Source of the DNA: Gemmatimonadota bacterium
Lineage (GTDB): Bacteria > Gemmatimonadota > Gemmatimonadetes > Gemmatimonadales > Gemmatimonadaceae
DNA: 64,000 nt
Direction of reading: 5' to 3'
Assembly (NCBI GenBank): GCA_021324775.1
Contig: JAJPIM010000026.1
Span: 1-64,000, forward strand
How positions within the stretch are numbered: the first letter of the stretch is position 1; each line of letters starts with the position of its first letter. Positions 16,101 through 40,527 of this stretch are shown in pieces. The notes below the pieces were generated by a model. That model did no database searches. It saw only the letters and a program-made list of their open reading frames with translations, and was not told the DNA's origin. Made by a program: the position numbers and the translations under genes.

Positions 16101-16758
16101 TGATCTGCGTCTGGATGGGGACGCGGCGGCCCAGCTCCGTGAACAGCCGTTCGAAGGCGGTGACGGCAGCTTTGACCTCGAGGATGTCCTGCGCGGTCTC
16201 GACGAGAAGGACATCGACGCCGCCTTCGACGAGGGCCTTGGCCTGGGCGTAGTAATTCTCCGAGAGCTCATCGAAAGTGATCGCGCCCAGCACCGGATCG
16301 TCGCTCGACGGCAGCATACCCGTTGGCCCGATCGACCCGGCGACGAACCGGGGGTGATCGGGAGTGGCGTACCCATCGCAGGCCGCGCGCGCCAGGCGTG
16401 CCGCCGCGACATTCAGCTCGTGGGTGTGTTCACCGATACCCCACTCTTTGAGCCGGCGCGGCGTCGCCTGGAAGGTGCACGTCTCGACGACGTCGCATCC
16501 CACGGCGAGAAACGACTCGTGGATGCCGCGGATGACATCCGGACGCTTGAGCACGAGGAAGTCGTTGCAACCTTCGAGCGAGGGTCCGCCGAAATCCGCC
16601 GCGCTCAGCTTGTGGCGCTGGATGTTGGTTCCCATGGCGCCATCGTAGATGAGCACACCGCGAGCGAGCGCGCCGAGATAGGAAGACGGATCCGGCGCGG
16701 CCGGCCGCGAGACTGGGCCAGGCGACCCGAGCGGTGAGGCGGATTGCGTGTCGGTCAT
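13135..16758 (-). CDS. metH: Cobalamin-dependent methionine synthase
   Basis: 1207 residues from the ATG at 16758, close to the 1227 of E. coli MetH. Seen in order: homocysteine-binding domain with zinc ligands in GLNCSTGP (about 249) and GGCCGTTPEH (about 317); pterin-binding domain (ERVNSQGSRAVKRML region); cobalamin cap; cobalamin-binding domain with DVHDIGKS (His about 763); AdoMet-binding reactivation domain ending with GYGACPDLDD (about 1126). Known: transfers methyl from 5-methyltetrahydrofolate via cobalamin to homocysteine. A 24-codon upstream ORF overlaps its start by ATGA and a terminator-like hairpin lies 26 bases upstream, which suggests attenuation. Confidence 0.97.
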   Translation of the reverse strand: MTDTQSASPLGSPGPVSRPAAPDPSSYLGALARGVLIYDGAMGTNIQRHKLSAADFGGPSLEGCNDFLVLKRPDVIRGIHESFLAVGCDVVETCTFQATPRRLKEWGIGEHTHELNVAAARLARAACDGYATPDHPRFVAGSIGPTGMLPSSDDPVLGAITFDELSENYYAQAKALVEGGVDVLLVETAQDILEVKAAVTAFERLFTELGRRVPIQTQITLDTSGRMLLGTDVASALTTLEALHVDVIGLNCSTGPEHMREPVRYLSEHATRPISVIPNAGLPLNTGTGDAVYPLEPAPLASALSAFVRDFGVRIVGGCCGTTPEHLRAVVEAVRPLSTNGVVRRPTTVPRVSSAMRAITLHQDPPPLLVGERVNSQGSRAVKRMLLADDYDGIVRVAREQAESGAHVLDVCVALTERADEAEQMSRVVKLLSMSVEAPIMIDSTEPAVLAAALAHLPGRGIVNSINMENGRQRIDAVLPLVRKHGAAVVALTIDEQGMAKTRQRKLEIARRIHDIATTEFGLAPADLLFDALTFTLATGEAEWIDSATETIEGIRLIKRELPGVLTSLGVSNVSFGLSPEARAVLNSVFLHHCVAAGLDAAIVNPAHIRPYAEVDAAERALADDLVFNRRPDALQQFIEHFSGTGTGGSRAAAGPAADPTAGMTADQRIHWMIVHRKKEGIEDQLDAAGVREQPVRVLNDVLLPAMKEVGDKFGAGELILPFVLQSAEVMKRAVKHLEQFLEKTEGYTKGKVVLATVYGDVHDIGKSLVNTILSNNGYTVYDLGKQVPVNTIIAKADEVQADAIGLSALLVSTSKQMPLCVQELDRRGLTYPVLIGGAAINRRFGRRTLFVDGERPYSAGVYYCKDAFEGLSMMDELMDTDRRREAVARTLDEARKDVFLHTTVGKDIAAGSASTERSAVRADGPIPTAPFFGTRVLRQIPLAEVFPLLDLEELFRLQWGGRGSGPAFERAVREEFQPALERLTAQASHEKWLVPQAVYGYFPVQSRGNDLVVYDPAAYESDGGALRETARFTFPRQVGRDRLCIADYFRPVDSGEVDVVALQIVTVGDAATHRFDTLQQAGEYTEAFYTHGLGVETAEALAEWMHRRIRSELGLPAGQGKRYSWGYGACPDLDDHTTVFRLLPADAIGMQLTSAFQLLPEQSTAAIIVHHPEAKYYAVRGEGAADNSPPAATAVGRAGDTTGAAA

Positions 16759-16829
16759 ACCTGCGGAGGTCTCCCGCGAGAACAAAAATGCCCGGACGCT
16801 GTACGCCGCCGGGCTTGGCGGTTTAGCAT
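16755..16829 (-). CDS. 24-residue upstream ORF before metH
   Basis: ATG at 16829 opens a frame whose TGA overlaps the metH ATG (ATGA, 16755-16758). The peptide begins MLNRQARRRTASGHF and is arginine-rich. It spans the terminator-like hairpin at 16784-16814, so ribosomes translating it would cover the stem. Inferred to be a coupling or attenuation leader; no homolog recognised, and chance origin cannot be excluded. Confidence 0.35.
   Translation of the reverse strand: MLNRQARRRTASGHFCSRGRPPQV
16784..16814 (-). terminator. Intrinsic-terminator-like hairpin in the metH leader
   Basis: On the minus strand GCCCGG (16809-16814) pairs with CCGGGC (16790-16795) across a 13-base loop, followed by ATTTTTG. 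The stem is six G/C pairs with a run of five T, located 26 bases before metH. An upstream gene in the same orientation is absent, so this is more likely a regulatory attenuator than a gene-end terminator. Confidence 0.45.
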
Positions 16830-16837
16830 TTGTTTAA

Positions 16838-17067
16838 CGTGGCCGCAAGTTGCCGTAAATCGCCACGAACTCAGTTGTTCTGTCCGTAACGTAACGGTGG
16901 CGGCGGGTAACGCAACCCCGCGCGGGCGCCTCGGTCGCGCTGGCGGCCAAATCGTTGTCGATCTGTCTCCGGATGCGCGTCTCGTCACTGGGAATGACGC
17001 CCATCCCACGCGGAGCGGCACAGCGCTGGTACCCGCCGGTACCGCGCGGGCACGGCTCTGGTATACT
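16838..17067. promoter_or_regulatory. Divergent control region between metH and the O-antigen ligase
   Basis: On the plus strand TG-N-TATACT (17059-17067) matches an extended -10 element pointing to the ligase gene; no good -35 is seen. Toward metH, an inverted repeat CGTGGC/GCCACG (16838-16843 and 16862-16867) and repeated GTAACG hexamers (16886-16896 and 16907-16912) are present. I see no cobalamin or SAM riboswitch core. The remaining 17068-17215 leader shows no feature. Confidence 0.35.
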
Positions 17068-17215: not shown

Positions 17216-18727
17216 GTGCGACAGACATCATTTGCCGGGCAGGCACTCGCACCTGTGGCCGCCCCTCCCGCCGGGGTGCGGCCGCAGCGACCAGCGCGCG
17301 TGCGGGTGCGTGTGCGCCGGGCGCTCCAATTCGCCAAGGACCCGTACCGTCTGGTGCTGCTGCTGCTGGTCGTGCTGACGATCAGCCGCCTGCACATGGC
17401 GATTCCCTCGCTCAACAAGACCCATCCGCTCATCGTGCTGACGATCGCGGCGCTGGCCGTCGCGTGGGCGCGGCCGGCGCTGCTGGCGCAGCGGCCGCTG
17501 TTCGTGACCTGGCCGGCCAAAGTCGTGGGCGGCATCGCGGTGTGGGCGCTGCTCGGGATGTTCTTCGGAATGTCCTTCGGGAGCACGGCGACGTTCATCC
17601 TCGAGGATTTCGGCAAGACCCTGATCTTCACGTTCCTGATTCTGGCGTCGATCCGGACATCCCGCGACCTGTTCACGATCATCGTCGCGTACATCGCGAG
17701 CGCGTCGTGGCTCGTGTATCAGGCCGTGTTTCATTTCCACCTCGAGATGGAGCAGGGCGGCTACTACCGGCTGAGCCATCTCGACACGTACGACGCCAAC
17801 GACCTCGGGCTGGTGCTGTTGCTCGGCCTCGCATTGACGCTGCTCGTCTTTCAGGTCGCCCGCTGGCGCGGGCGGATCATTGTCAGCGGCGTGCTGCTGG
17901 GGATTGCCGCGGCGATCGCCAAGAGCGGCTCGCGAGGCGCATTGGTCGGACTCGTGGCGATGGCGCTGGCGTCGCTCGTGCTGCTGCAGGCGGTCCCGCT
18001 GTGGAAGCGCTGCGCGTTCATCGCAGTGGCGATCACGGGGATCACGGCGTTTGCGCCGTCGGGCTACTGGCGGCAGATGGAAACCCTCATCCACCCCGAG
18101 AACGATTACAACTGGGACTCGAATCACGGCCGGCGGCAGGTCGCGCTACGCGGCATCGGGTATTTCGAGATGTTTCCGGTCTTCGGCCTCGGCGTGGGCA
18201 ACTTCGAACGGGCCGAATGCACGCCCGAGATCTCGCCGAATGCGCGCTACCGGTATGCGCATGGCCTCGGCGTGTGGTGTGAGCCGCCGCACAACTCGTA
18301 CGTGCAGGCGCTGGCCGAGACGGGGGCAGGGGGCATTCTGCTGTGGCTCGTGATGGTACCCGGTTCGGCTCTCTGGCTGGTGTTCCTGCAGCGCCGGATG
18401 CCGCAGCAGTGGGTGAACGGCGACGGCGAACAGCGATTCCTGTACTTCGCGCCGATGTATCTGTCGATCGGCATCATCGCGTTTTCCGTGGGCGCGTTCT
18501 TCCTGACATTTGCCTGGCGCGAAGTGACGTTCTACATCCCCGGCGTCGTGGCGGGCCTGGACGCCGCGGTGGCGGAGCGGATGGCACGTGAGGGCATTCC
18601 CGGGCCGCTCCTGCCAGGATCGGTCGGCAACGTCAAGCTGGCCGCCCGCCAGGTGCGACGGTGGATCGCGCGTCCGGTGGCGTGGGGATCGCGAGGTCCG
18701 CGCGCCGGGCGGGTCGTGCGTCGCTGA
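17216..18727 (+). CDS. O-antigen ligase / polymerase family protein
   Basis: 503 residues, about ten hydrophobic segments. Seen: a short basic N-terminus, the family-typical periplasmic loop preceded by AKSGSRGALVGLV and a conserved HNSYVQALAETGAGGILLWL segment. Known: the Wzy_C family joins polysaccharide repeat units or transfers them to lipid or protein acceptors. A GTG start is assumed at 17216 but the ribosome binding site is too close, so initiation may be downstream. The nearest other polysaccharide genes begin at 21388, so it may belong to the same locus. The acceptor cannot be determined. Confidence 0.85.
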   Translation: MRQTSFAGQALAPVAAPPAGVRPQRPARVRVRVRRALQFAKDPYRLVLLLLVVLTISRLHMAIPSLNKTHPLIVLTIAALAVAWARPALLAQRPLFVTWPAKVVGGIAVWALLGMFFGMSFGSTATFILEDFGKTLIFTFLILASIRTSRDLFTIIVAYIASASWLVYQAVFHFHLEMEQGGYYRLSHLDTYDANDLGLVLLLGLALTLLVFQVARWRGRIIVSGVLLGIAAAIAKSGSRGALVGLVAMALASLVLLQAVPLWKRCAFIAVAITGITAFAPSGYWRQMETLIHPENDYNWDSNHGRRQVALRGIGYFEMFPVFGLGVGNFERAECTPEISPNARYRYAHGLGVWCEPPHNSYVQALAETGAGGILLWLVMVPGSALWLVFLQRRMPQQWVNGDGEQRFLYFAPMYLSIGIIAFSVGAFFLTFAWREVTFYIPGVVAGLDAAVAERMAREGIPGPLLPGSVGNVKLAARQVRRWIARPVAWGSRGPRAGRVVRR

Positions 18728-25242: not shown

Positions 25243-26062
25243 ATGGCGCTGGGCCGCCCGGATGTCTCGGTCATCATCCCCGCGTACAACGAGGAGAAGC
25301 GGCTGGCGCCGACGGTCCGCGACGCCGTGGAATATTTCCGGGGGCGCGCGCGCTCCGTGGAGATCATCGTCGTCGATGACGGCAGCCGGGATCGCACGAG
25401 CGATCTGACCCACCACCTCGGCGCCGAGATGCGCGAGGTGCGGCTCATCCGGCTGGCGGCCAATGCGGGGAAGGGATATGCGGTCCGAACGGGGGTCGTC
25501 AACGCGCGCGGCCGGCTCGTGATGTTCATGGACGCGGATGGTGCGACTCCGATCCGAGTTCGAGCGGCTCGAGACGGCGATCGACGCGGGCGCCGCGGTC
25601 GCGATCGGATCCCGCGTGCTGCATGGCCAGGGCGTGCGCGTCCGCGCCCGGTTCTACCGGCGGCTGATCGGCCGGAGCTTCCATGCACTCGTGCGCGCGC
25701 TGACCGTCCGCGGCATTGCGGACACGCAGTGCGGATTCAAGATGTTCCGCGGCGAAGTGGCGCACGATCTGTTTTCGCGCATGCGGATGACCGGGTTCAG
25801 CTTCGACGTCGAAGTCCTGGTCATGGCGCAACTCCGCGGGATACGCGTCGCGGAAGTGCCGGTGAACTGGACCCACCAGCCGGGGTCGCGCGTGAACCTG
25901 GTGCGCGATTCGCTGCACATGGCATACGACCTTCTCGTCATTCGCACCCACGTTCTGCGCGGGGACTACGACGCGCCGCATGTGGCGCCATTGTCGGGCG
26001 TCGCGGTGGTCGTCGATCCGATCGACGACGAGCGGGAGGGTCCGGAACCAGCGCTCCCGTAG
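25243..26062 (+). pseudogene. GT2 dolichyl-phosphate-sugar synthase family, frameshifted
   Basis: The first part (ATG 25243) reads VSVIIPAYNEEKRLAPTVRD and VDDGSRDRTS, with the DxD motif in MFMDADGATPI. The reading then shifts by one frame near 25553 and continues as SEFERLETAIDAGAAVAIGSR to the stop at 26062, which ends HVLRGDYDAPHV. The joint text ATPI-SEFERLE fits the family exactly if two bases were lost from ATCTCC to give ATCC. The complete protein would have about 273 residues. Known: makes polyprenyl-phosphate glucose or mannose. It is either a disabled gene or a sequencing error; a partner for the adjacent GT39 donor supply would be expected. Confidence 0.85.
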
Positions 26063-26132
26063 CCGGCGGGCGCTGTGGCATCACGGATCTCCATCTCCCA
26101 CTCACGTCCGCTGTGATCGGCCCGGCCGACCG

Positions 26133-27329
26133 ATGAGGGTGCCGCGCCGGCAGCCGCCGGTCGTATCCCACGTGAGCCCGTCCGCGGTTCTGGCCGCAGC
26201 GCGCGTCGCGGCCCGCCGATACGCGGGGCGGGTGGATCGCGGAGACGAAGTCGTGCGGTCCGCGCTGAGCACCCGGTACGACGCCAGAGCCGTGGCGCTG
26301 ACGGACAGCGGAACTGCGGCGCTGGTGCTCGCGATGCGGCTCACGGCACCCCGGGGTACCGTCGCTCTTCCAGCCTACGGCTGCGTGGATCTCATCGCCG
26401 CGGCGGTCCGGGCGCGAGTGCGGGTGCGCCTCTACGACGTCGACCCCGCGACCCTCAGCCCTGATCTCGGCTCGGTGCGGCAGGCGCTCGGGCGCGGGGC
26501 GGACGCGATCGTCGTCGCCCACTTCTACGGCTACCCCGCGGACGTCCCTGGCGTGCGCGCATTGGCCGATGCCGCGGGAGCCCGGGTGATCGAAGACGCG
26601 GCCCAGCAGGCGGGCGGGCGGCTCGGAGGGGTGCGGCTCGGCGCATTCGGGCCGCTCAGCGTATTCAGTTTTGGGCGGGGCAAGGGCACCACCGGGGGGC
26701 GCGGCGGAGCGTTGCTTGCCACCGCGGAAGCCGGGGCGGCGGCCATCGGGGCGGTGGAAGCGGCGGGGCGTGCGATGCCGCCACGGGCGGCCGGATGGGG
26801 TGAAGTCGTGATCGCGGCGGCGCAATGGGTCCTCGGCCGCCCGGCGGCCTACGGGATCGCCGCATCGCTCCCTGGTCTCCACCTCGGAGAGACCATCTAT
26901 CATCCCGCCGGCGAGCCCGGTCCTCTCTCCCGCGCGGCTGCGGCGCTCGTGCGCCGCGGGTTGCCACATGCGGACGCCGAACGACTCGCGCGGGCGCGCG
27001 TGGCGGAATCACTCATTGCCCAACTGGCGCGCGTTCCCTCGTTCCATCCGGTGAGACCGATCGCAGGTGGGATGCCCGGGTATCTCCGGATGGCGGTGCT
27101 CGACGGGGCCGGGCGCCGCCCGGCGCCGGCCATGGGGATCGTCCGCAGCTACCCGCGCCCGCTCGCCGAGGAGCCCGAGCTGGCACCCATTATCCACCGT
27201 GGAGAACCCGACGCGCCCGGCGCGCGGGACATCTGCCGGACGTTGCTCACCCTTCCAGTTCACGAGTACGTGACCCTCGCGGACGAGCGGCAGATCGTCG
27301 AGTGGGCATCGTCGGTCGCGATGGGGTGA
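26133..27329 (+). CDS. DegT/DnrJ/EryC1/StrS family aminotransferase
   Basis: 398 residues from the ATG at 26133. Seen: PLP-binding region with the acid and motif IEDAAQQAGGRLGG, and the Schiff-base Lys in SFGRGKGTTGGRGG (about residue 184). Conserved NTD start TDSGTAALVLAMRL. Known: these enzymes aminate keto-sugars of nucleotide sugars during exopolysaccharide assembly. Atypical elements of the C-terminus (residues 200-300, rich in Ala/Gly) make the specific sugar unclear. Last gene of the plus group; a hairpin follows at 27361-27392. Confidence 0.8.
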   Translation: MRVPRRQPPVVSHVSPSAVLAAARVAARRYAGRVDRGDEVVRSALSTRYDARAVALTDSGTAALVLAMRLTAPRGTVALPAYGCVDLIAAAVRARVRVRLYDVDPATLSPDLGSVRQALGRGADAIVVAHFYGYPADVPGVRALADAAGARVIEDAAQQAGGRLGGVRLGAFGPLSVFSFGRGKGTTGGRGGALLATAEAGAAAIGAVEAAGRAMPPRAAGWGEVVIAAAQWVLGRPAAYGIAASLPGLHLGETIYHPAGEPGPLSRAAAALVRRGLPHADAERLARARVAESLIAQLARVPSFHPVRPIAGGMPGYLRMAVLDGAGRRPAPAMGIVRSYPRPLAEEPELAPIIHRGEPDAPGARDICRTLLTLPVHEYVTLADERQIVEWASSVAMG

Positions 27330-27392: not shown

Positions 27393-27561
27393 AGAGGCAG
27401 GCGAGTCGGACATACTGACCGCCTAGGAGCACGACCGACCCGAAATTGGGTCTGGCGCCGTAGAGGCTGCTGGCCTACGTTGCCAGACGTCGGGGCCGGG
27501 CGATAAAGCGTCGCCTGGAGTTACGCGGTGTACAGCCGCGCCCCGGCATGCAGGACCGGAT

Positions 27562-27593
27562 CGGCCCGCTATTCGGGCGGGCCGACGCTTTTT
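27562..27593 (+). terminator. Intrinsic terminator
   Basis: CGGCCCGC (27562-27569) pairs with GCGGGCCG (27577-27584) in an eight-pair stem with seven-base loop, followed by ACGC and five T. It lies about 230 bases after the DegT gene, immediately upstream of the first riboswitch, and would insulate the riboswitch gene from readthrough. Confidence 0.65.
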
Positions 27594-27619
27594 ACCTCCG
27601 GCGGGATCGTCGCCCTGCA

Positions 27620-27722
27620 CAGGGCTGCGACAAAGGCAAACCCGGCGAAAGCCGGCGACGCAAAGCCACGAGGCTACCGTCCGCGCGCAGCAGGATCAGC
27701 GCGGGCCACGCCAGTCGGGCCG
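27620..27722 (+). ncRNA. c-di-GMP-I (GEMM) riboswitch, copy 1
   Basis: The core GGCAAACC, a GAAA tetraloop stem (CGGC-GAAA-GCCG), GACGCAAAGCC and the GGCTAC segment match the GEMM-I consensus known from Vc2. A 3' helix follows, ending in GCCACGCCAGTC. The aptamer ends about 25 bases before the ATG at 27745, where AGGGGG lies 5 bases before the start. No terminator is seen between, so translational control is the simplest mechanism. Boundaries are approximate. Confidence 0.85.
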
Positions 27723-27744
27723 CCGAACAGACGCAGGGGGACAG

Positions 27745-30273
27745 ATGCGCGCGGCGAACACGCGGCCTGCGCTGGCGTTTGCGGTTACGCTAGCGGGAAT
27801 TCTGGGCGCCTTTGGCACGTACGGCTGCTTCAGCGGCCGCTCACTCACCGATCCCAGCTCGGGTAGTCCCGGCACCGGATTTCGCCCTCCGACATCGCCG
27901 ATCGCTCAGGTAGCGCTGTCGCCGTCGTCGATCAGCGGCAAGCCGGGCGACTCGACCACGATCACGGCGACCCTGAAGGACTCCTCTGGTGCGCAGGTGA
28001 CGGAATCGGCGGTCAACTGGTCGTCCACCGATTCGTCGGTCGCGACGGTGTCCGCCAACGGCCGCGTGCGGCTGTGGCACAAAGGGAGATCATGGATCAG
28101 CGTCAAAGTCGGCACCGTGACCGATTCCGTCCCGACCACGGTCACGAATCAGGTGCTGGCGACGATCCAGCTCTCACCCACGGCGATCAGCGGCGCCCCG
28201 GGCAGCTCCACGCAAATCACCGCCGTCCTCGACGATTCCACCGGCGCGCCGATGACGCCGTCGCCGGCGCTCAACTGGACCTCGTCCAACTCGTCCATCG
28301 CGAGCGTCTCGAGCTCGGGCCTCGTGACCCTGTCGAAGCAGGGTAGCGCGACGATCACGGCATCCGCGAGCGGCGTCTCGTCGGCCGTGGGGGTGACGGT
28401 AACCGCGCCCCCAGTGGGACCGGTGGCATCGATTGCGCTCTCTCCGGCCGCGATCACCGGCATTCCGGGCAATACCGCGCAGGTGTCCGCGGCCCTGACG
28501 GATGCGAACGGCAACGCCGTCACCGGAGTCGCGGTGTCGTGGTCCTCGTCCAACACGGCTGTGGCCACGGTCTCGTCCGGCGGTCTCGTGACCCTGGTCA
28601 ATCAGGGGGCGGCGACGATCAAGGCGTCGGCGGGTGGTGTGACAGCGACGATCGGCGCGACGGTCAACGCGGCTCCGGTCGCCTCGGTCGTACTCTCGCC
28701 CACATCGATCACGGGCGTGCCGGGCAACACGACGCAAGTGTCGGCGGTACTCAAGGACGCATCGGGCAATGCAGTTACGGGACAGACCGTGTCGTGGGCG
28801 TCGTCCGACGCGACCATCGCGAACGTCAGCTCAAGCGGACTCGTCACGCTCAAGAAGCAGGGGAGCACCACCATCACCGCCTCCGACGGAAGTATCTCGG
28901 CGACCGTAGCGGTGGTGGTGAACGCGCCGCCAGTCGCCGCGATCGCGCTCTCGCCCACGACGGTCACGGGCGTGCCGGGGAACACGGCGCAACTGTCGGC
29001 TGTTCCGGAAGACGCATCGGGCAATGCCATCAGCGGCGTCTCGCTCACGTGGTCGTCATCGAACACCGCGATCGCGACCGTGTCGGGCGGCACGGTGTCG
29101 CTGGTCAAGCAGGGGACGGCGACCATCACGGTGGCCGGTGCCGGCGTCTCGGCAACGGCGGCGGTGACGGTGAATGCTCCGGCGCCTCCGGTGGTCGCGG
29201 CGGTGGCAGTAACCCCCACCAGTCTCAGCCTCAATGCCGGACAGAGCGGCCAACTTACGGCGACCGCCGTGGACGCGTCAGGGAACGCCATACCTGGAGC
29301 GACGATATCTTGGACGTCATCGAACACCGGGATGGCGACTGTGTCTGGGACGGGGATGGTGCAGGCGATCGCGGCCGGTACCGTGATCATGACCGCAACG
29401 AGCGGCGGGCACACGGCGACGGCGAAAGTGCAGGTCGCGGCCGTGCAGCCGCCGAGCAGTGGGCCGAGCAACGGGTGGAACATGCCGGCCGGCATGACGA
29501 TCGTCTGCCAGACCGGTTCGGTCACGTCATCGTCCCCCGGATTCTCGATGCCGGCTGGCGGCTCCATCAATTTCGGCGGTCCGGTCCCGTGCGCGTGGAC
29601 GCGTAACGGCGGAAACGGCTCGATCGGCCTGGCGTCGTCTGGTACGAACCCCGACGGCTCGGCCAACAACGACGTGCAGCCTTCCGGCTACCGGGTGATG
29701 TTCCCGGCCGGCCAGGTGAACGACCCCGGGTGGGACATGTACTTCAACCACGCCGCCGGCACGGGCACCTACTACATCGGGTGGAAGCAGCGGTGGCAGC
29801 CGCTCGGCAGCTACGCGGCGTTGCTGTCGGCGATGAACAGCGGCGACAGCAAGGCGTGGGCGCCCAAGGGACCGTCGGGTGGAGATCTCACGATCATGTC
29901 GTGGATGGGCTTCAACAGCACGCCGGTCATCGGTCTCAATTTCCAGGGCGTCGATGGCCACAACATTCTGGACGTGAACCAGACCGGTGGCAGCGGCACG
30001 ATACCGGTGACGAGTGCGATGACGCTACCGGGCGTGGCGGCCGGAAACGGCGCGTGGGACCAGGAAGAAGTGCTGATCGTGGGGAATGGCACCACAAGCA
30101 CGAGCACGGTGTCGTTTTTCGTGAACGGTGTCGCGGTGGGGACCGCGACGGGCGTCACCAACGCGAATGCCTGGACCGCGACGGAGCAGTACCTGTCGCG
30201 CTCGATTTACTCCGGGACGCAGGCGCAGACCACGTATACGGATCTCGATCAGGTAACGGTCGCTGTGAAGTGA
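27745..30273 (+). CDS. Exported protein with six Ig-like (Big_2) domains and a C-terminal ConA-like domain
   Basis: 842 residues. Seen: signal peptide-like N-terminus (LAFAVTLAGILGAFGTYGC, with a Cys that may be lipidated, though the box is not ideal), then six repeats of about 85-90 residues (motifs such as LSPTSITGVPGNTTQVSAVL and VATVSSGGLVTL), then a unique C-terminal part of about 260 residues (PSGYRVMFPAG, WKQRWQPLGS) related to the downstream protein at 30832. Known: Big_2 domains are found in surface adhesins. Inferred: a c-di-GMP-controlled surface or matrix protein. No PEP-CTERM tail is seen. Confidence 0.9.
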   Translation: MRAANTRPALAFAVTLAGILGAFGTYGCFSGRSLTDPSSGSPGTGFRPPTSPIAQVALSPSSISGKPGDSTTITATLKDSSGAQVTESAVNWSSTDSSVATVSANGRVRLWHKGRSWISVKVGTVTDSVPTTVTNQVLATIQLSPTAISGAPGSSTQITAVLDDSTGAPMTPSPALNWTSSNSSIASVSSSGLVTLSKQGSATITASASGVSSAVGVTVTAPPVGPVASIALSPAAITGIPGNTAQVSAALTDANGNAVTGVAVSWSSSNTAVATVSSGGLVTLVNQGAATIKASAGGVTATIGATVNAAPVASVVLSPTSITGVPGNTTQVSAVLKDASGNAVTGQTVSWASSDATIANVSSSGLVTLKKQGSTTITASDGSISATVAVVVNAPPVAAIALSPTTVTGVPGNTAQLSAVPEDASGNAISGVSLTWSSSNTAIATVSGGTVSLVKQGTATITVAGAGVSATAAVTVNAPAPPVVAAVAVTPTSLSLNAGQSGQLTATAVDASGNAIPGATISWTSSNTGMATVSGTGMVQAIAAGTVIMTATSGGHTATAKVQVAAVQPPSSGPSNGWNMPAGMTIVCQTGSVTSSSPGFSMPAGGSINFGGPVPCAWTRNGGNGSIGLASSGTNPDGSANNDVQPSGYRVMFPAGQVNDPGWDMYFNHAAGTGTYYIGWKQRWQPLGSYAALLSAMNSGDSKAWAPKGPSGGDLTIMSWMGFNSTPVIGLNFQGVDGHNILDVNQTGGSGTIPVTSAMTLPGVAAGNGAWDQEEVLIVGNGTTSTSTVSFFVNGVAVGTATGVTNANAWTATEQYLSRSIYSGTQAQTTYTDLDQVTVAVK

Positions 30274-30326
30274 GAGCGTGAGTTGAGACTCTGATGCGGC
30301 AGTGATGTCTCAGGCAGCAGTGCTGG

Positions 30327-30352
30327 CGGCCCCGTCGTGATCGGCGGGGCCG
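30327..30352 (+). terminator. Terminator-like hairpin after the Ig-domain gene
   Basis: CGGCCCCG (30327-30334) and CGGGGCCG (30345-30352) form an eight-pair stem with a ten-base loop. Only a loose T-rich segment (TCTGCGTTTCTC) follows. Located 54 bases after the stop. Confidence 0.6.
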
Positions 30353-30632
30353 TCTGCGTTTCTCGACCTCTCGAGGGGACACCGCGAACATCAGCCTCAA
30401 CCGTGTGGTGCGATGGACTCGCATCATCGGGAGGAAAAACGCTCCGGCGAATACGCCGCGCGACATTTTGACCGAACCATCGCGGCGCCGATGCGCCGCA
30501 GCGCCGGCGCTTCACGAAAAGAGCGGAGCGTTCGGTGGCCGGGACAATCGCTCCGGCATCATTTGGCGTCGCGGGATGACGCGCGTGGGACGATTGACAT
30601 CTGGTCGCTGAAAAAAAATTCTTCGAGAGGGG
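30353..30632 (+). promoter_or_regulatory. Upstream spacer with a -35-like TTGACA
   Basis: Nearly gene-free. A perfect TTGACA lies at 30594-30599 followed by an A-rich stretch, but its partner at the correct distance (AATTCT) is poor. An inverted repeat GGAGCG/CGCTCC is seen around 30520-30560. No coding feature is supported. Confidence 0.25.
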
Positions 30633-30660
30633 TTGCGCGATCATGTCGCCGCTGTATTGT
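30633..30660 (+). promoter_or_regulatory. Predicted promoter of the second riboswitch gene
   Basis: TTGCGC (30633-30638) and TATTGT (30655-30660) are 16 bases apart. The predicted transcript start at about 30667 lies some 30 bases before the aptamer. The match is moderate. Confidence 0.4.
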
Positions 30661-30697
30661 GTAGGCGTCACCCAGTTGCGCGTCTGCGGAACACTGC

Positions 30698-30803
30698 AGG
30701 CCACACGCAACCCTGGCAAACCCGCCGAAAGGCGGTGACGCAAAGCTCTGGGGGCTACAGCACACGCAGATGTCTCGCGAGTGCCACGCCAGTCCGGCTA
30801 CCT
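30698..30803 (+). ncRNA. c-di-GMP-I (GEMM) riboswitch, copy 2
   Basis: The core GGCAAACC, stem CGCC-GAAA-GGCG, and GACGCAAAGC match copy 1, as does the 3' element GCCACGCCAGTC. The aptamer is followed after a few bases by CCTCA (30801-30805), which is complementary to TGAGG (30819-30823) at the ribosome binding site, so ligand binding could change access to it. Boundaries approximate. Confidence 0.85.
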
Positions 30804-30831
30804 CACAATATCGTAGGATGAGGAACCAGCC

Positions 30832-32166
30832 ATGCCCTCAGTGCAGGACTGCGGCCGCGCGTTTGCGCGGGCCCGCTGGCCGCGACTGGCACGCCGGCTT
30901 TTCACGCGGTCCGCCATCTCGTTGTTCGCCCTCGCGTCGACGTTCGCTGCATGCAATGATTCGCCATCCCCGCCGACCGCACCGCGGGACGCGGCGTTGG
31001 CCGGGGGTGACGTGACGGTTCATGCCGCCTCCGTCGCGTATCCGATCGTCACCATCCAACCGACGGTGACCACGATCGCAGTCGGGGCCAAAGTGACGCT
31101 GCGCGCCAAGCTCTCGGAGGGAAGCGCCTCGTGGATGGGCAAGAAGACGACCTGGCGCAGCTCGGACACGACCATCTTGTCGGTGGCGATCGCCAACTGG
31201 GGTGGTGCGGGCGGCGACGAGGGCATCTTCACCGGCAAGAAGGCCGGGAAGGCGACTATCACCGCCACCACGGAGAGCCAGACCGTCGGATCGATGGCCG
31301 TCACCGTGACGAGCACCTCCGGCGGGTCGACGCCACCGCCGCCCACGACTCCCGCGCCAGCGCCAGCGCCGGCGCCGGCACCGACCCCACCCATTCTCGC
31401 GGGCACCACGCATCAGCCGTCCGGCTACATCGCGGTGGTGAACACCGGCCCGCTGACCAGCGGCCCGACGGGCCACAACACCTCCTGGACGTCAGGCGGC
31501 CCGATTCCCATGACCTGGACGCTGGTACAGGGGACGCCAGCCGCAAACATGGGCCTTTCCAGTGCGGCATCTACCGAGCCGCAGAGCGAGGGATACCGAA
31601 TCTATTTCCCGGCGGGCGCGCAAAACGACGCCGCGGTCGCGGCCTCGCTGCCGTTCACGCCGGTCGGTGGCGGCAGCATCTACGCCCGGTGGCGAATGCG
31701 GCTCGGGTCGACATGGTCGACGAGCGCAATGAACGCGCAGTCGAGCAAGCTCTTCGCGCCCAAAGACGTCAACAGCGCCAACGACGACATCGTCATGGCC
31801 TACCTGCCGTCGCCCGTGAACTACGCCGCAGGCGTTGGGCTCCAGGGTCCGACGACCGCGAACGTCCCGAACAACAATGTGGCGACGCCGGCGTCGACGG
31901 ACATGTACGCCGCAGGTGTGTGGAACCAGATCGAAGTGCTGATCACTGCGGACAGCCCGGCTGGTGCTGGCAACGGTACCGTGACGGTCTGGGTGAACGG
32001 CGTACAGGGAGCCAAGACGACCGGCGTCTCGATCTTCTCGTCGAGCGAGAAGATGCAGTGGCGGAACTGGTCGATCTACGCCGCGCGCGCCGTGTACAGC
32101 GGCGTCCAGGCGAAGACGACGTTCGAAGACATCGACAACCTGTATGTCGCGGTAAGTCCGAACTGA
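30832..32166 (+). CDS. Lipoprotein-like exported protein with Ig-like and ConA-like domains
   Basis: 444 residues. GAGGA seven bases before the ATG at 30832 supports the start. Seen: signal with lipobox-like STFAAC (probable lipoprotein), one Ig-like domain (VTTIAVGAKVTLRAKLSE), a Pro/Ala linker (TPPPPTTPAPAPAP) and a C-terminal domain sharing SGYRIYFPAG-type, WR-type and VYSGxQAxTTxxDxDxxxVA ending with the 27745 protein. Known: similar sandwich folds occur in glycan-binding and lyase proteins. Inferred: surface glycan binding under c-di-GMP control. A strong hairpin follows the stop. Confidence 0.88.
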   Translation: MPSVQDCGRAFARARWPRLARRLFTRSAISLFALASTFAACNDSPSPPTAPRDAALAGGDVTVHAASVAYPIVTIQPTVTTIAVGAKVTLRAKLSEGSASWMGKKTTWRSSDTTILSVAIANWGGAGGDEGIFTGKKAGKATITATTESQTVGSMAVTVTSTSGGSTPPPPTTPAPAPAPAPAPTPPILAGTTHQPSGYIAVVNTGPLTSGPTGHNTSWTSGGPIPMTWTLVQGTPAANMGLSSAASTEPQSEGYRIYFPAGAQNDAAVAASLPFTPVGGGSIYARWRMRLGSTWSTSAMNAQSSKLFAPKDVNSANDDIVMAYLPSPVNYAAGVGLQGPTTANVPNNNVATPASTDMYAAGVWNQIEVLITADSPAGAGNGTVTVWVNGVQGAKTTGVSIFSSSEKMQWRNWSIYAARAVYSGVQAKTTFEDIDNLYVAVSPN

Positions 32167-32250: not shown

Positions 32251-32287
32251 AGAGCGGGGTAGCGCGTGAGTTGCGCTGCCCCGCTCT
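32251..32287. terminator. Convergent 15-bp stem-loop
   Basis: AGAGCGGGGTAGCGC and GCGCTGCCCCGCTCT pair with one wobble and a seven-base loop. The right arm overlaps the stop of the minus-strand GT2 gene. It lies between convergent genes, so a bidirectional terminator is likely despite the weak T-run. Confidence 0.55.
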
Positions 32288-33542
32288 ATCCGTTTGGGGA
32301 ATCCCCTGGAGCGCTGCCCTCGCCGGTGGGCGCCGGTGCCGGAGTGGCCGGCTCGTGGCGGTCTGTGCGCACCCAGGGCTTGTTGGCCAGACGGCTCAGC
32401 GATGCGAGTTGGATGCCGAGACGCCAGAACACGTAGAACGGGAGAAACGCGAACGCGCCGACGGCGCGCACGGGCTCCGGATCTCGCGCCAGAGCGATCG
32501 TGGTATAGGCGATCGGCCGCACCAGCGACGCGAGAAGTGCCACGGCGATCCCCGCGCCCCAGGGCAGTCCTCCGAACGCCGCGATCGCGGCGAGTACGAC
32601 CGCGCTCCCGAGGTGTGCCGCCGGGCCGAGCGCCATCATTTCCGCGAGACAATCGAGCTTTTGGCGGCCGCTGATCCGGCGGCTGCGAAGGATGGCCGGC
32701 CCGTAGGTACGTAGCACCGTGAGACGGCCTGCGGTCCATCGCTTGCGCTGGCTCGCACTCTGCCCGAGCGACCGCGCTTCCTGGGCACCCAGGTGGGCGT
32801 CCTCGGCGCCGACACACCGCACACCGGCCGCCGTCATGCTGGCGTAGATCTCCCAGGTCTCCGAGAGCGAGAACGCCGACCAGCCAAACTCGCCGAGCAC
32901 ACCGGTCCCGATGCAGAGCCCGTCGCCCAGGGGCACGTTGAGACCGGCATGCACCTTGATCGCGTTCACGACCTGGAATCGCACGGCCGACCACACGCGG
33001 GCCATTCGCGTGACGGCACTCTCGCCCGGATTGCTGACATCGATGTAGCCTTGCACGACCTTCGAGCCGAGGGGCGAGCGTCGCGCGAGCGCGCGCAGGA
33101 ATCCGGGATCGACGATGGAGTCGGCGTCGAGCACGATGACCGCATCGTAGTCCGCCAGCGTGACGCGCTCGAGCGCCCAGGCCACGGCCCACGGCTTTCC
33201 GCGCTGCCCGAGATTCGTACGCTCGAGACAGCGAACTCCTCGCGAACGGACCCGGTCCGAGGTGGCGTCCGTGCAGTTGTCCGCCACCACCAGCGTCTCG
33301 GCGCGGTCCGCAGGATACTGGAGCTGCTGCAGCGACGCGAGACAGGCGTCGATGAGGATTTCCTCGTCGTGCGCGGGGATCAGGATGAGGAACCGCGGAG
33401 TCGCGGCCGGAGGTCCGGCGGGCGGGAGGTCGTTCGATCGCGCCGGTAGCAGGACGCTCAACAGGTCGGAGATCGTGGGAAGGAGAAACACCGCCGCGAG
33501 CACGGCGAGCACGCCCGACAACAGCCCCGCGAGCGCCATCAT
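32286..33542 (-). CDS. Membrane GT2 glycosyltransferase
   Basis: 418 residues from the ATG at 33542 (the hydrophobic helix MMALAGLLSGVLAVLAAVF directly follows, while the sequence upstream is not family-like). Seen: GT2 core with IPAHDEE, VVADNCTDAT, DxD in VLDADSIVD, and QRKRW, then three C-terminal helices, the cellulose synthase-like architecture. Known: polymerises or adds sugars from nucleotide sugars. It stands alone on the minus strand, convergent with the riboswitch genes and divergent to the deacetylase gene. Confidence 0.85.
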   Translation of the reverse strand: MMALAGLLSGVLAVLAAVFLLPTISDLLSVLLPARSNDLPPAGPPAATPRFLILIPAHDEEILIDACLASLQQLQYPADRAETLVVADNCTDATSDRVRSRGVRCLERTNLGQRGKPWAVAWALERVTLADYDAVIVLDADSIVDPGFLRALARRSPLGSKVVQGYIDVSNPGESAVTRMARVWSAVRFQVVNAIKVHAGLNVPLGDGLCIGTGVLGEFGWSAFSLSETWEIYASMTAAGVRCVGAEDAHLGAQEARSLGQSASQRKRWTAGRLTVLRTYGPAILRSRRISGRQKLDCLAEMMALGPAAHLGSAVVLAAIAAFGGLPWGAGIAVALLASLVRPIAYTTIALARDPEPVRAVGAFAFLPFYVFWRLGIQLASLSRLANKPWVRTDRHEPATPAPAPTGEGSAPGDSPNG

Positions 33543-33769
33543 TGATCGAATCTGAGTAGACCGATTGGCAATGTACAGGAGGCTCAGGGGATCACGCGGG
33601 CGCGGCATCGCCTCGCGGCCTATGGCTGCCGCCACTGGTGCACCATCTTTCCCGGCAGGTGCGGGGCGCTGGACGCCGCCGAACACCATCACCGGGATGA
33701 GACGATCGAGAGACTCGCGAAGCACGTGACGGCGGCGGCCCGCTGGCGGCACCCGAATCCGGCGAGCTC

Positions 33770-34714
33770 GTGACCGCGCGGCGCCGCACGAAGGCGATCG
33801 TGGAGCGCGTCCTGGTCACCGGCGGCGCAGCGGCGTGGAGCGCGCGGCGCCACCGGGGCGGAGTCTGCATTCTCGCATATCACAACATCGTACCCGGCAC
33901 GCTTCGCGGCGTGGGTGATGCGTCGCTGCATTTGGCGGACAGTGATTTCCGGCGGCAGCTCGATGAGATCGGGCGCCGGTACGAGGTGGTGCCGGTGACC
34001 GAGGTGTTGGCCGGATCGTCGCGTCCCCGCCGAGCGCGCGTAGCGATCACGTTCGATGATGCGTACCTCGGCGCCGTCACCCTCGGGGTCGAGGAGCTCG
34101 CGCGCCGAGGGTGGCCCGCGACGATCTTCGTGCCGCCGGGGTTGCTGGGGCGCCGCGCGATGTGGTGGGACTCGTTCGTGCTCGCGGAGACGGCGCGTGG
34201 TGTGTCGTCCGCACCCGGCGTCCGAACGCAAGCGCTCACTGACTGCGGCGGGCGTGACGCTCGCGTCCGGGAGGTTGCGGCGCGCGACGGGTGGGGCATC
34301 CGCGATGTGCCGGAGGTCGCGCTGACGGCGACCGAGGCGGAACTGGCGGCGGCATGTCGCCGTCACGATGGGCTATCGCTGGGGTCGCATACGTGGTCGC
34401 ATCCCAACCTCGCGCGCTCGGCCGAGTCCGAGCTTGCGGACGAGATGCGGCCACCGCTCGAGTGGCTGCGCGCGCGGTACGAGCGCACCATCCCGTGGCT
34501 CGCCTATCCCTATGGCCTTACCAACCCGCCGGCCGCCGCGGCGGCGCGAGCGGCCGGGTACGAGGCCGCGGTGCTGGTCTCCGGCGGGTGGGCAATGCCG
34601 CCAATTCGTGACCCGTTTGCAGTTCCGCGCGTGAACATCCCGGCAGGACTGAGCGCCGATGGGTTCGCGCTGCGGCTGTCGGGGGTGTTGAGCCCTGGCG
34701 CCCCGCAATCGTGA
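33770..34714 (+). CDS. NodB-type polysaccharide deacetylase
   Basis: 314 residues from GTG 33770. Seen: motif 1 TFDDAYLG, motif 2 SLGSHTWSHPNL (both His), and IPWLAYPYGLTNPPA; the fold begins near CILAYHNIV. No signal peptide. Known: removes acetyl groups from N-acetyl sugars using a divalent metal. Catalytic residues look intact, unlike the fused domain of the gene at 54427. It is 124 bases before the ATP-grasp gene, whose promoter lies in between, so transcripts may be separate. Confidence 0.85.
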   Translation: MTARRRTKAIVERVLVTGGAAAWSARRHRGGVCILAYHNIVPGTLRGVGDASLHLADSDFRRQLDEIGRRYEVVPVTEVLAGSSRPRRARVAITFDDAYLGAVTLGVEELARRGWPATIFVPPGLLGRRAMWWDSFVLAETARGVSSAPGVRTQALTDCGGRDARVREVAARDGWGIRDVPEVALTATEAELAAACRRHDGLSLGSHTWSHPNLARSAESELADEMRPPLEWLRARYERTIPWLAYPYGLTNPPAAAAARAAGYEAAVLVSGGWAMPPIRDPFAVPRVNIPAGLSADGFALRLSGVLSPGAPQS

Positions 34715-37351: not shown

Positions 37352-38989
37352 TCAGGCCGCCCCTCCCGGCCCCCCGCCTGCCGGTGCCAGCGGCCGTCCC
37401 GCCGCCCGGTCAGCGGTCCTCGTCAGGAACTGCCCGGCCATCCGCAGCGCCGCCGCCCGGTCGTCCGCACTGACCACGCCCGCGAACCAGACCACGATCA
37501 GGTAGGCGATGTACAGCGAGATACGCACCGGCAGCATGTACACGAGCGGTCCCCACGGGATGTACCAACTGATCGCATACGTGAGGCCCGTGAGGGCGAC
37601 GAGGCGGATGACCGGCGCCCAGTCGTAGCGCACCGGCCAGAGGCGCTGCGAAAAGAAGTACGTCAGGGCAGAGCGGACGACGTATCCGATCACCGTGGCG
37701 GAGGCCGCACCCCAGAGGCGGTATCGGGGAATCAGGATCGCGTAGGCGATGAGCGTGACGATCGCGGCGGCCCAGTTGGCGATCGCGAGGTACTTGGTCC
37801 GCTCGGACACGAGAATGCCGAGGTCGTGCATCCCGGCCCACCCCTGCAGTACGATGGATACCACGAGCAACGGCACGTAGTCCGATGCGCCGAAAAACGG
37901 CTTCGTCGCGATGAGGTGCAGCACGTCGTGCGTGAACATCGCGAACCCCAGCGCTCCTGCCATCAGCACGACATTGAAATAGACGAAGACCCGCGCGTAG
38001 ATCGCATCATGATCGGGATGCGTGGCGATCTCAAAGCGTTTGGGCTCCCAGACCAGGCTAAAGGGAGTCTGTGTCAACGAATTGAGCGCAAACGCGAACT
38101 GGTACGCCGTCGTATAGATGCCGACCGACGTCAGATTCGTGACGGCGCGCAGGAACGGGCGGTCACCGAAGGTGAGAATGAACGTCGCGGCCTGGACCAC
38201 GATGAGCGGAAAGCCGAAGCGATACAGCGCGCTCGCCGCGTGCGGGGAGAAGTGGAGGCCGACTGGCCGCAGGACCATCACCAGCACCACACCGCCCACG
38301 CAGATGTTAGCCAGGAGCGTGCTGAGGAAGATGGCATTCGGTCCCATGAGATAGTGCACGAGAAACAGCACGTTGAGCGCGACCTGCATCGCGAGCCGCG
38401 CGAGCTGTATCACCACGACGCTGCGGAATCGGCCTTGCACGCGCAGCAGAGCGGGCGGAAGACTGGTGAGGGATTGGCTGGCGAGAGCGAGGGACCCGAT
38501 GCGAACCAGGCCAGAGAGCGACGTGTCGCCGAGGACCACTTTGGCCAACGGGGTCGCCGCTGCGTACGCGATCGCGCCAACCGCGGCGTATCCGGTGCAA
38601 ATGAGCAACGCACCCGTGGAGATGACGGCTTTCCGCTCCGTTTCGGTCTCGGCCTTGTAGTAGTATCGGAAGACGCCGCCGAGGAGGCGCGTGCCGGCCA
38701 CCATCGTGAGGACGTCGAAGCTCAGCTCGATCAGCTCCATCGCTCCGTACTGCGAGGGCCGCAGGTACCTGGTGTAGACCGGCAGCATGACGAACGACAC
38801 GGCCTTGGTGAGGATCGTGACGACGGCAAACATCATCGTGTATCCGCCGAGCGACGCGAGCCGGAACGGGGCCGGCGCGTCTGAGGTCGGCTCGGTTACG
38901 GATTCGTCTTGCGACGCGACCTCGACCGGATCCTCGACCAGCGGTGCCGGGGGCGACCGGTCCGCGCTGGTGCGGCGTTCAGCGCTCAC
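37352..38989 (-). CDS. Wzx-type polysaccharide flippase (PST/MATE family)
   Basis: 545 residues from the GTG at 38989, which overlaps the stop of the GT39 gene by GTGA. Seen: polar N-terminus of about 40 residues, then at least ten hydrophobic segments; the family motif LGGYTMMFAVVTILTKAVSFVMLPVYTRYLRPSQYG opens the transmembrane part (split across two helices). Known: flips lipid-linked repeat units. Last gene of the minus-strand operon. Confidence 0.9.
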   Translation of the reverse strand: MSAERRTSADRSPPAPLVEDPVEVASQDESVTEPTSDAPAPFRLASLGGYTMMFAVVTILTKAVSFVMLPVYTRYLRPSQYGAMELIELSFDVLTMVAGTRLLGGVFRYYYKAETETERKAVISTGALLICTGYAAVGAIAYAAATPLAKVVLGDTSLSGLVRIGSLALASQSLTSLPPALLRVQGRFRSVVVIQLARLAMQVALNVLFLVHYLMGPNAIFLSTLLANICVGGVVLVMVLRPVGLHFSPHAASALYRFGFPLIVVQAATFILTFGDRPFLRAVTNLTSVGIYTTAYQFAFALNSLTQTPFSLVWEPKRFEIATHPDHDAIYARVFVYFNVVLMAGALGFAMFTHDVLHLIATKPFFGASDYVPLLVVSIVLQGWAGMHDLGILVSERTKYLAIANWAAAIVTLIAYAILIPRYRLWGAASATVIGYVVRSALTYFFSQRLWPVRYDWAPVIRLVALTGLTYAISWYIPWGPLVYMLPVRISLYIAYLIVVWFAGVVSADDRAAALRMAGQFLTRTADRAAGRPLAPAGGGPGGAA

Positions 38990-40527
38990 GGCGTTCGCAC
39001 CCGGTACACCTCGAAGGCCGGCATCGAGGACGACGTCACATCGACGGACTGGGTATCCGGCCACACGGGCGTGCAGCACGCGGCCAGCGCGTTGTTGAAC
39101 GCGCCGAGATCGGCGCCCTGTAGCCGCATTGCCCCGATCCATTCCTTGCGGTCCACGACGAGCCATCGCACGTGCCACGCCTGCAGGCTGTCCGCGGCGG
39201 GCAGGTACGGGGGCACCAGATCCCAGAAGGATTTCGCGGGGGTGGTGCGCTGCATCACGATGTAGGGTGCGGCAAGCACGACATCAGACGGTTGGGTGTG
39301 GCGGTCGAGCCATTGGACGGTCGCCCGCGACGGCTCCCTCGTGGTGGCGACGCCGCCCGCGAAGCGGGCCACATCGTATACCAGGACAACCACAAGGACG
39401 ATCGAGGCCCAGGTCCAGCGCACGCCGAAGCGATGCCGAGCCATGGCAGTCCGGTCCATCTCGGCGAGGAACCACGCGCTGCCCAGCGCCATGGCCGGGT
39501 AGAGGACCGCGAGGTGGTTCTCGAGCCACACGGCCTGGACGATCAGGGCCGCTAGGCCCAGGAAGAACCACCAGCCGATCAGTGTCGACCGCCGCTCGAA
39601 AAGCGCCATGATCGCACCGGCGGTGCCGAGGACCACCCCGAATGGCGCGTCGGTGGACAGGACCCGCAGGATTCTGAAGGCGAAGTTCGGGTCGATGACG
39701 ATGAATCCCACGCGAAAAACGGCCGGGACGACCCCGGGCCCGTTGCCCGGCCGCACGGGAACGCCTCGCGTGGTCGCGATCCACCCTTTCAGGAACTCGC
39801 TCGGGTCATGCATGGCGAGGATCGCGAATACCAGAGCCGCGAGGGCGGCGCCCGCGGCGAGTGCGAGCCACGACCTGCGCCGGCGTTCTCGGTCCATTGG
39901 GGGGGCGTCCGTGAGGCTCGCGAGGACGAGAGCGACGAGGATGAAGGCGCCATTCGCCTTCGTGAGGAGTAGGCCGGCCGTTGCTAGCGCGGCGGCGACG
40001 AGGTCGCGCCGGGTGCGGCCGAGGCAGAAAAAGACCAGCGCGTTCATCCAGAACATCTGGAACGGCTCGATGTAGGCGCGCCGGTCCGTCAGCACCGTCG
40101 CGTAGTCCAATCCGAGCAGCAACAGCGCCCAGAGCGCGGTGCGGCGATCGCCGGTCAGGCGGTACGCGGCGCCGGTGAAACACGCGAGGCCGAGCAGCGT
40201 GAAGATGGCGGCCGTATCGCGTCCAACGACGACCGTGGGCCCGAACAGCCGGAAGGCCAGACCGAGAATCCAGTGGTAGACCGGCGCCTGGTAGTAGTCG
40301 AACGTGGCCAGTCCGTGGTCGGCCCAGTTCCGGACCGCCAGCGGCCAGCCGCCCTCATCGGGGGCAATGATCGGATATCGGCCAAGCCAGAGCGTGTGGA
40401 CGATGACGACCAGCGCGATGGCCGCGATCGCCTGCGCGCCAAGCCGGGTCGCGTGCGTCGTCGTCGCGTGCGTGGTCGTCGCGTGCGTTGTGTCTGTCCC
40501 GGACCGGCCGGGCGTGTTAGTGGTCAT
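38986..40527 (-). CDS. GT39-type membrane glycosyltransferase
   Basis: 513 residues. Seen: a repeated N-terminal peptide THATT (three in-frame copies of 15 bases, 40449-40493), then about 11 hydrophobic segments; first-loop motif IIAPDEGGW has the catalytic acid. Start ATG 40527 overlaps the previous gene by 11 bases. Known: GT-C transferase using polyprenyl-phosphate sugars. The three neighbours are similar, suggesting several decoration steps. Confidence 0.82.
   Translation of the reverse strand: MTTNTPGRSGTDTTHATTTHATTTHATRLGAQAIAAIALVVIVHTLWLGRYPIIAPDEGGWPLAVRNWADHGLATFDYYQAPVYHWILGLAFRLFGPTVVVGRDTAAIFTLLGLACFTGAAYRLTGDRRTALWALLLLGLDYATVLTDRRAYIEPFQMFWMNALVFFCLGRTRRDLVAAALATAGLLLTKANGAFILVALVLASLTDAPPMDRERRRRSWLALAAGAALAALVFAILAMHDPSEFLKGWIATTRGVPVRPGNGPGVVPAVFRVGFIVIDPNFAFRILRVLSTDAPFGVVLGTAGAIMALFERRSTLIGWWFFLGLAALIVQAVWLENHLAVLYPAMALGSAWFLAEMDRTAMARHRFGVRWTWASIVLVVVLVYDVARFAGGVATTREPSRATVQWLDRHTQPSDVVLAAPYIVMQRTTPAKSFWDLVPPYLPAADSLQAWHVRWLVVDRKEWIGAMRLQGADLGAFNNALAACCTPVWPDTQSVDVTSSSMPAFEVYRVRTP
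40449..40493. repeat. 15-bp in-frame tandem repeat, three copies
   Basis: Imperfect copies of TCGCGTGCGTCGTCG at 40449, 40464 and 40479 code for THATT on the minus strand near the N-terminus of the GT39 protein. Being a multiple of three, copy-number change would not shift the frame. Confidence 0.85.

Follow-up and report, generated by a model that had tools for sequence, protein, structure and literature searches.

Two neighbouring genes in a Gemmatimonadota genome raise the question of whether a second messenger controls proteins that act on the polysaccharide made around them. They lie in the window, i.e., the whole 64,000-nucleotide (nt) stretch that was analysed (contig JAJPIM010000026.1, assembly GCA_021324775.1). 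Each encodes an exported protein and follows an RNA aptamer of the c-di-GMP-I (GEMM-I) riboswitch class, named for cyclic diguanosine monophosphate (c-di-GMP). We asked what the two RNAs sense, how they could reach translation and what the proteins do. Our reading, to which we assign a probability of about 0.64, is that two GEMM-I riboswitches with a G at contact position 20 (G20) tune translation initiation of two surface proteins acting on or binding the local polysaccharide, with the upstream riboswitch (copy 1) turning its gene OFF.

The window was scanned against Rfam 15 at curated (gathering) thresholds, and three RNAs were found, of which exactly two were c-di-GMP-I. The preliminary description had assigned both to GEMM-I and named a failed covariance-model search as a result that would overturn the assignment. 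Both copies proved to be full-length matches to RF01051 (cut-off 35 bits) over model positions 1-87: copy 1 (27625-27727, plus strand) with 59.0 bits and an E value of 5.4e-9, and copy 2 (30705-30805, plus strand) with 54.8 bits and 5.9e-8. They were assigned to RF01051 and not to the sister model RF03167, in a scan that reports the best clan member only. The GEMM-I core was present in both (GGCAAACC, a GAAA tetraloop and GACGCAAAGC). The 3' element CCACGCCAGTC, which the same description noted as shared, is indeed common to both copies, but it is an ordinary strand of aptamer stem P3 that occurs, with small variations, in all aptamer copies of the genus; it was therefore dropped as a sign of a special pair. 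The claimed position of each aptamer less than 35 bases before a gene of the immunoglobulin (Ig)/ConA-like type held, as the start codons of gene 1 (27745) and gene 2 (30832) follow the aptamers by 17 and 26 nt, respectively.

Ligand type was assessed by comparing Rfam positions over 115 aptamers from the source genome and its relatives, in which Rfam position 11 corresponds to G20 of Vc2. The ligand-contact residues named for Vc2 and Vc1 are G20, A47 and C92 (PMC4744006). All three, the c-di-GMP type, were kept in both window copies, at 27635, 27662 and 27723 in copy 1 and at 30715, 30742 and 30801 in copy 2. An A-to-G change at position 20 converts a GEMM-Ib RNA that senses 3',3'-cyclic GMP-AMP (cGAMP) to a c-di-GMP sensor (PMC6456294). 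Because G20 is present and this change switches the ligand, c-di-GMP is the predicted ligand of both window copies. The source genome contains 12 GGDEF and 6 EAL matches.

How could such an aptamer act on its gene? In short-gap G20 leaders, a hairpin that we call P0, with the outer stem TCGC/GCGA, lies directly 5' of the aptamer. Upstream pairing of aptamer positions 4-7 was found in 45 of 59 such leaders, compared with a mean of 13.2 and a maximum of 17 when the upstream sequences were shuffled, and deviating leaders keep the hairpin via compensating changes (GTTGCTA/TAGTAAC, TTACT/AGTGA and ATCGC/GCGAT). P0 of leader 1 (ATCGTCGCCC..GGGCTGCGAC, 27606..27631, plus strand; -15.9 kcal/mol) belongs to this family-wide conservation. 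That of leader 2 (GTTGCG..CGCAAC, 30675..30711, plus strand) shows compensating changes when set beside GTCGCG..CGCGAC in the congener Gemmatimonadetes bacterium Centralia_MAG_343 (G001). The 3' arm of P0 and the 5' strand of the aptamer closing stem P1 use the same bases; that is, P0 competes with P1. This overlap is present in leader 1, where P1 is regular (CUG/CAG, 27625-27627 with 27728-27730) and the conserved AA/GAA flanks are retained.

The 5' arm of P0 showed complementarity to the Shine-Dalgarno (SD) region. In permutation tests over leaders that are related to each other, this arm paired with its own SD at -13.7 kcal/mol, compared with -11.7 +/- 0.46 kcal/mol when the partners were permuted (z -4.4, n 36) and -12.8 +/- 0.41 kcal/mol when they were permuted within genomes (p 0.011). 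The pairing peaked 8-9 nt before the start codon. Three control segments, two others upstream and one downstream, showed no significant pairing with the SD, and neither did the P1 5' flank exceed permuted partners there (z +1.2). Pairing of the P1 flanks was better with their own partners than after permutation (z -4.3; p 0.007 within genomes). In leader 1, the arm (27605..27618, plus strand) is a candidate anti-SD, being complementary to 27733-27746 with a duplex energy of -24.9 kcal/mol; this target spans the SD of gene 1 (AGGGGG, 27735..27740, plus strand) and most of the start codon. Such complementarity suggests translational OFF control induced by the ligand.

We postulated the following switch for copy 1. 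In the absence of ligand, P0 would form, the SD would be free and the gene would be ON. Upon binding of c-di-GMP, P1 would form and capture the 3' arm of P0, and the released 5' arm would then pair with the SD and start codon, turning the gene OFF. The two exported proteins would each display a carbohydrate-active or carbohydrate-binding ConA-like domain on an Ig-like stalk, acting on or binding the polysaccharide produced by the surrounding locus.

Several observations weigh against this reading. For copy 1, the SD accessibility computed by RNAfold was 0.16 in the free fold and 0.17 with the aptamer forced; the folding energies show no switch, and thermodynamic folding was abandoned as a means of choosing between ON and OFF. 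In the relative palsa_1248 (G002), which has a counterpart of copy 1, the SD/start-codon helix is kept only by half (6 bp), and two of the three genes with the C-terminal domain lack an aptamer in the available sequence, one of these being cut by a contig end. Copy 2 differs from nearly all aptamers, with CC for AA at 8-9, UCA for GAA at 85-87 and no regular P1 pairs, and forcing its aptamer costs ~12.5 kcal/mol relative to the free fold. The end of aptamer 2, CCUCA (30801..30805, plus strand), overlaps C92 and can pair with the gene 2 SD (TGAGG, 30819..30823, plus strand; duplex -8.4 kcal/mol), which would favour ON control. Copy 2 may thus be a poor ligand binder, or it may be wired as an ON switch. 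It is possible, at clearly less than even odds, that copy 2 has begun to decay or has been re-wired and no longer responds to c-di-GMP as copy 1 would: its base changes and costly fold speak for this, as does the regular counterpart in G001 (C23:20180), whereas its score, its retained contact bases and its P0, kept by compensation, speak against it. ON logic in general, in which c-di-GMP frees the SD of sessile-state adhesins or matrix proteins, appears rather unlikely. It has a precedent in Vibrio cholerae, where Vc1 precedes the secreted N-acetylglucosamine-binding GbpA and raises its expression with c-di-GMP (PMC4744006). Furthermore, the SD accessibility of gene 2 rose from 0.12 to 0.32 once the aptamer was forced, and in some relatives CCTC directly follows the aptamer, opposite an SD of the form GAGGGG. 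However, a local hairpin between 3' flank and SD was rejected as a general platform, as over 57 leaders it did not exceed permuted pairing (z -1.0), though a weak signal appeared within genomes (p 0.02), whereas the P0 5' arm does pair with its own SD beyond permuted partners. In several leaders of STAS-type and GGDEF-type genes the SD also seems, by eye, to be hidden within P1, an arrangement that points to OFF.

It is highly unlikely that the window aptamers sense cGAMP in place of c-di-GMP. Aptamers of the A20 type do exist in relatives (32/115 of those compared), and the Geobacter cGAMP riboswitch GEMM-Ib (PMC6456294) is a close aptamer variant that likewise has surface-directed regulons. 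However, the GEMM-Ib mark, A20, is absent from both window copies, and it is the very base whose change to G turns GEMM-Ib toward c-di-GMP. The notion that the aptamers are chance matches or functionless remnants is hardly credible: beyond the oddities of copy 2 nothing favours it, and it has to face E values near 1e-8 in a 64-kb search and the recurrence of aptamers across genera, at similar distances before the same kind of gene and with covarying flanks.

Relative to known systems, the aptamer and its ligand class are already known (GEMM-I), and the window copies resemble RF01051 in sequence, structure and contact bases. The RF01051 model contains neither the P0 hairpin nor its candidate anti-SD 5' arm, and the window aptamers have a compact spacing of 17-26 nt to the gene. 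RF03167 (c-di-GMP-I-GGC) was the best model for one other aptamer of the source genome (L005) and for one in a relative (L060), in contrast to the window copies. Vc1-gbpA resembles the window in that a c-di-GMP-I aptamer controls one secreted carbohydrate-binding surface factor; it differs in having a 225-nt untranslated region, no apparent anti-SD and positive control (PMC4744006), whereas the window aptamers lie beside the SD and OFF control is proposed, and its product is unrelated to the window proteins. The P0/anti-SD detail of the expression platform is apparently unreported: no description of it, or of a c-di-GMP-I surface-lipoprotein regulon in Gemmatimonadota, was found in literature coverage that was mostly without subscription papers and leaves novelty unproven.

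Next, the exported proteins were examined. Protein 1 (842 amino acids (aa); 27745..30273, plus strand) has a signal sequence in which GTYGC may hold a lipobox cysteine, together with six Big_2 stretches and a C-terminal ConA-like domain; protein 2 (444 aa; 30832..32166, plus strand) has a signal sequence with a lipobox-like FAAC, one Big_2 and a C-terminal ConA-like domain. The Big_2 (PF02368, cut-off 22.8) scores were 149.9 and 27.4 bits, respectively. The C-terminal ~265 aa were 37% identical and both were modelled as jelly rolls, in agreement with the preliminary description of two exported proteins sharing this domain. From shallow alignments of 12 and 11 rows, AlphaFold2 produced models of moderate confidence for domain 1 (29470..30270, plus strand; predicted local distance difference test (pLDDT) 68.8, predicted template modelling score (pTM) 0.76) and domain 2 (31408..32163, plus strand; pLDDT 67.9, pTM 0.75), which were compared with known structures using VIA-align. 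The top match of domain 1 was Aly36B, of family PL36 (Z 17.0, root-mean-square deviation (rmsd) 3.1, 214 residues aligned), and that of domain 2 was the PL14 structure 5gmt (Z 16.8, rmsd 3.2, 223 residues). For both domains vAL-1 and the glucuronan lyase 2zzj, of family PL20, came next, followed by GH16 enzymes, PL7 lyases and lectins at Z 13-14. The models therefore resemble ConA-like jelly rolls nearest to alginate/glucuronan lyases of PL14/PL36/PL20 (Z ~16-17).

This resemblance has limits. The polyuronate lyases of these families (5gmt, 6kcw and 2zzj) share the jelly roll with the window domains over 203-223 residues at Z 14-17, whereas identity is ~10%. The Pfam PL14 model (PF21294) gave 18.9 bits for domain 2, below its cut-off of 27, and no match for domain 1, a further point against the proposed function. 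When the domain sequence was compared with solved structures, a seven-member profile (A4) gave no match at E values up to 1 and profile A5 gave chance-level partial matches at E values up to 10. The modelled fold alone is no proof of lyase activity, and polysaccharide binding would be equally possible.

The preliminary description had placed the pair inside a polysaccharide locus, and such genes were found around it. They comprise a DegT/DnrJ/EryC1 aminotransferase (25980..27329, plus strand), an EpsU-like GT2 glycosyltransferase scoring below the equivalog cut-off (32286..33752, minus strand), a polysaccharide deacetylase (33770..34714, plus strand), a Wzx-like flippase (37352..39178, minus strand; PF01943, PF13440) and a Wzy/O-antigen ligase-type protein (17216..18727, plus strand; PF04932), along with a PMT-like protein, a GT4 and an ATP-grasp protein. 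Judging by the joint occurrence of flippase, polymerase/ligase-type protein and glycosyltransferases, the surroundings are a Wzx/Wzy-type polysaccharide locus. The reading of the preliminary description, a c-di-GMP-controlled surface module in such a locus, is supported. G001 has two aptamer-preceded Ig/ConA-like genes in a similar locus, adjoining genes that resemble the DegT-like aminotransferase and polysaccharide deacetylase of the window; the link of the aptamer genes to a polysaccharide locus is therefore kept within the genus. Elsewhere in the window, a SAM-II (SAM_alpha) riboswitch (16803-16876, minus strand) lies just before metH (13135-16785, minus strand), an ordinary arrangement, and a response regulator carries a degenerate GGDEF domain (GPTEF for GGDEF; 62471-63445, plus strand).

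Upstream of aptamer 1, a putative promoter, CTGGCG-N18-TACGTT (27452..27481, plus strand), was proposed from its sequence pattern, with a transcript start predicted just after 27481. Similar pairs were seen in 8 of 14 leaders of the genus, ~114-183 nt before the aptamer, and might reflect one sigma factor for the regulon. Between putative promoter and aptamer, a ~100-nt element (27500-27600; AAGCGTCGCC..GGCCGACGCTT) is common to leader 1, the leader of a further aptamer of the source genome (C43:144248) and leaders of G002. It has no recognisable counterpart in G001 and was therefore taken as lineage-specific. In leader 1 and in the C43:144248 leader (L005, ~4130-4235), the element has complementary ends (AAGCGTCG..CGACGCTT). 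The shared sequence is perhaps another structured element or a leader duplication.

We then considered the pair within its group. The source genome has four c-di-GMP-I aptamers, two of them in the window; the third (C43:144248) precedes a beta-helix lipoprotein and the fourth (C43:16905) a protein of 381 aa that matched no Pfam family. The aptamer was found in 39 of 60 relatives and in 0 of 14 control genomes. Downstream genes were read around the 115 aptamers with a simple script (codon-position GC bias with a bonus for SD and start codon), a few of whose calls are visibly wrong. A lipobox-like motif occurred in 49 of the 62 genes with a G20 aptamer <=33 nt away, compared with 1 of 32 coding-like open reading frames of the window, and the median gap to the aptamer over all 56 G20 lipobox genes was 23 nt. 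Pfam, run on 87 downstream proteins, returned Big_2 (40), Big_1 (28), beta-helix (7), STAS (7), subtilase (5), ricin lectin (4), PL14 (3), Polysacc_lyase (3), GGDEF (2) and alginate lyase (1). Aptamers thus stand mainly before surface lipoproteins group-wide, and the window pair is therefore one instance of a group habit; it belongs to a predicted group-wide surface-lipoprotein regulon. The group probably controls surface lipoproteins via an aptamer-adjacent hairpin able to mask the ribosome-binding site.

Other arrangements were observed among the relatives. In G051 and G053, an upstream A20 (cGAMP-type) and a downstream G20 (c-di-GMP-type) aptamer stand in tandem before a single Ig-like lipoprotein gene (L060, 549-638 and 708-799; L073, 639-728 and 819-909; L069, 724-814 and 906-995; L102, 1292-1382 and 1475-1565), a possible two-messenger logic gate; a direct A20 and G20 tandem pair was not found in the accessible part of a tandem-riboswitch survey (PMC9481103). 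Triple arrays of A20-type aptamers with ~157-nt spacing precede Ig-like genes in L096 and L097 (G036:C3 and G036:C36). c-di-GMP-I aptamers also precede genes for a GGDEF protein (L106, 2345-3565), a response regulator-GGDEF protein (L057, 3595-4530) and lipoprotein signal peptidase (SPase II; L108, 716-1357), which suggests feedback and coupling to lipoprotein maturation. STAS-domain proteins of ~100 aa follow c-di-GMP-I-like aptamers in L103, L125, L127, L139 and others; several of these aptamers are A20, and in some of the leaders the SD seemingly lies within the closing stem.

A Clostridioides colonization factor is reported to be under c-di-GMP riboswitch control (PMC6447587). c-di-GMP signalling in Gemmatimonadota itself seems almost unexplored; a search of the accessible literature combining the phylum, c-di-GMP and riboswitch returned one paper, a review in which each term occurs once. 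The present data offer a predicted surface-lipoprotein regulon and a testable translational switch, and would link a second messenger to proteins of lyase-like modelled fold inside a cluster making polysaccharide. Tentatively, and with less than even confidence, we envisage that Gemmatimonadota govern a regulon of surface lipoproteins and matrix enzymes via c-di-GMP-I aptamers with a group-specific P0/anti-SD OFF platform, such that falling c-di-GMP would release polysaccharide-acting proteins encoded inside the polysaccharide locus, with the two window copies maybe of opposite sign.

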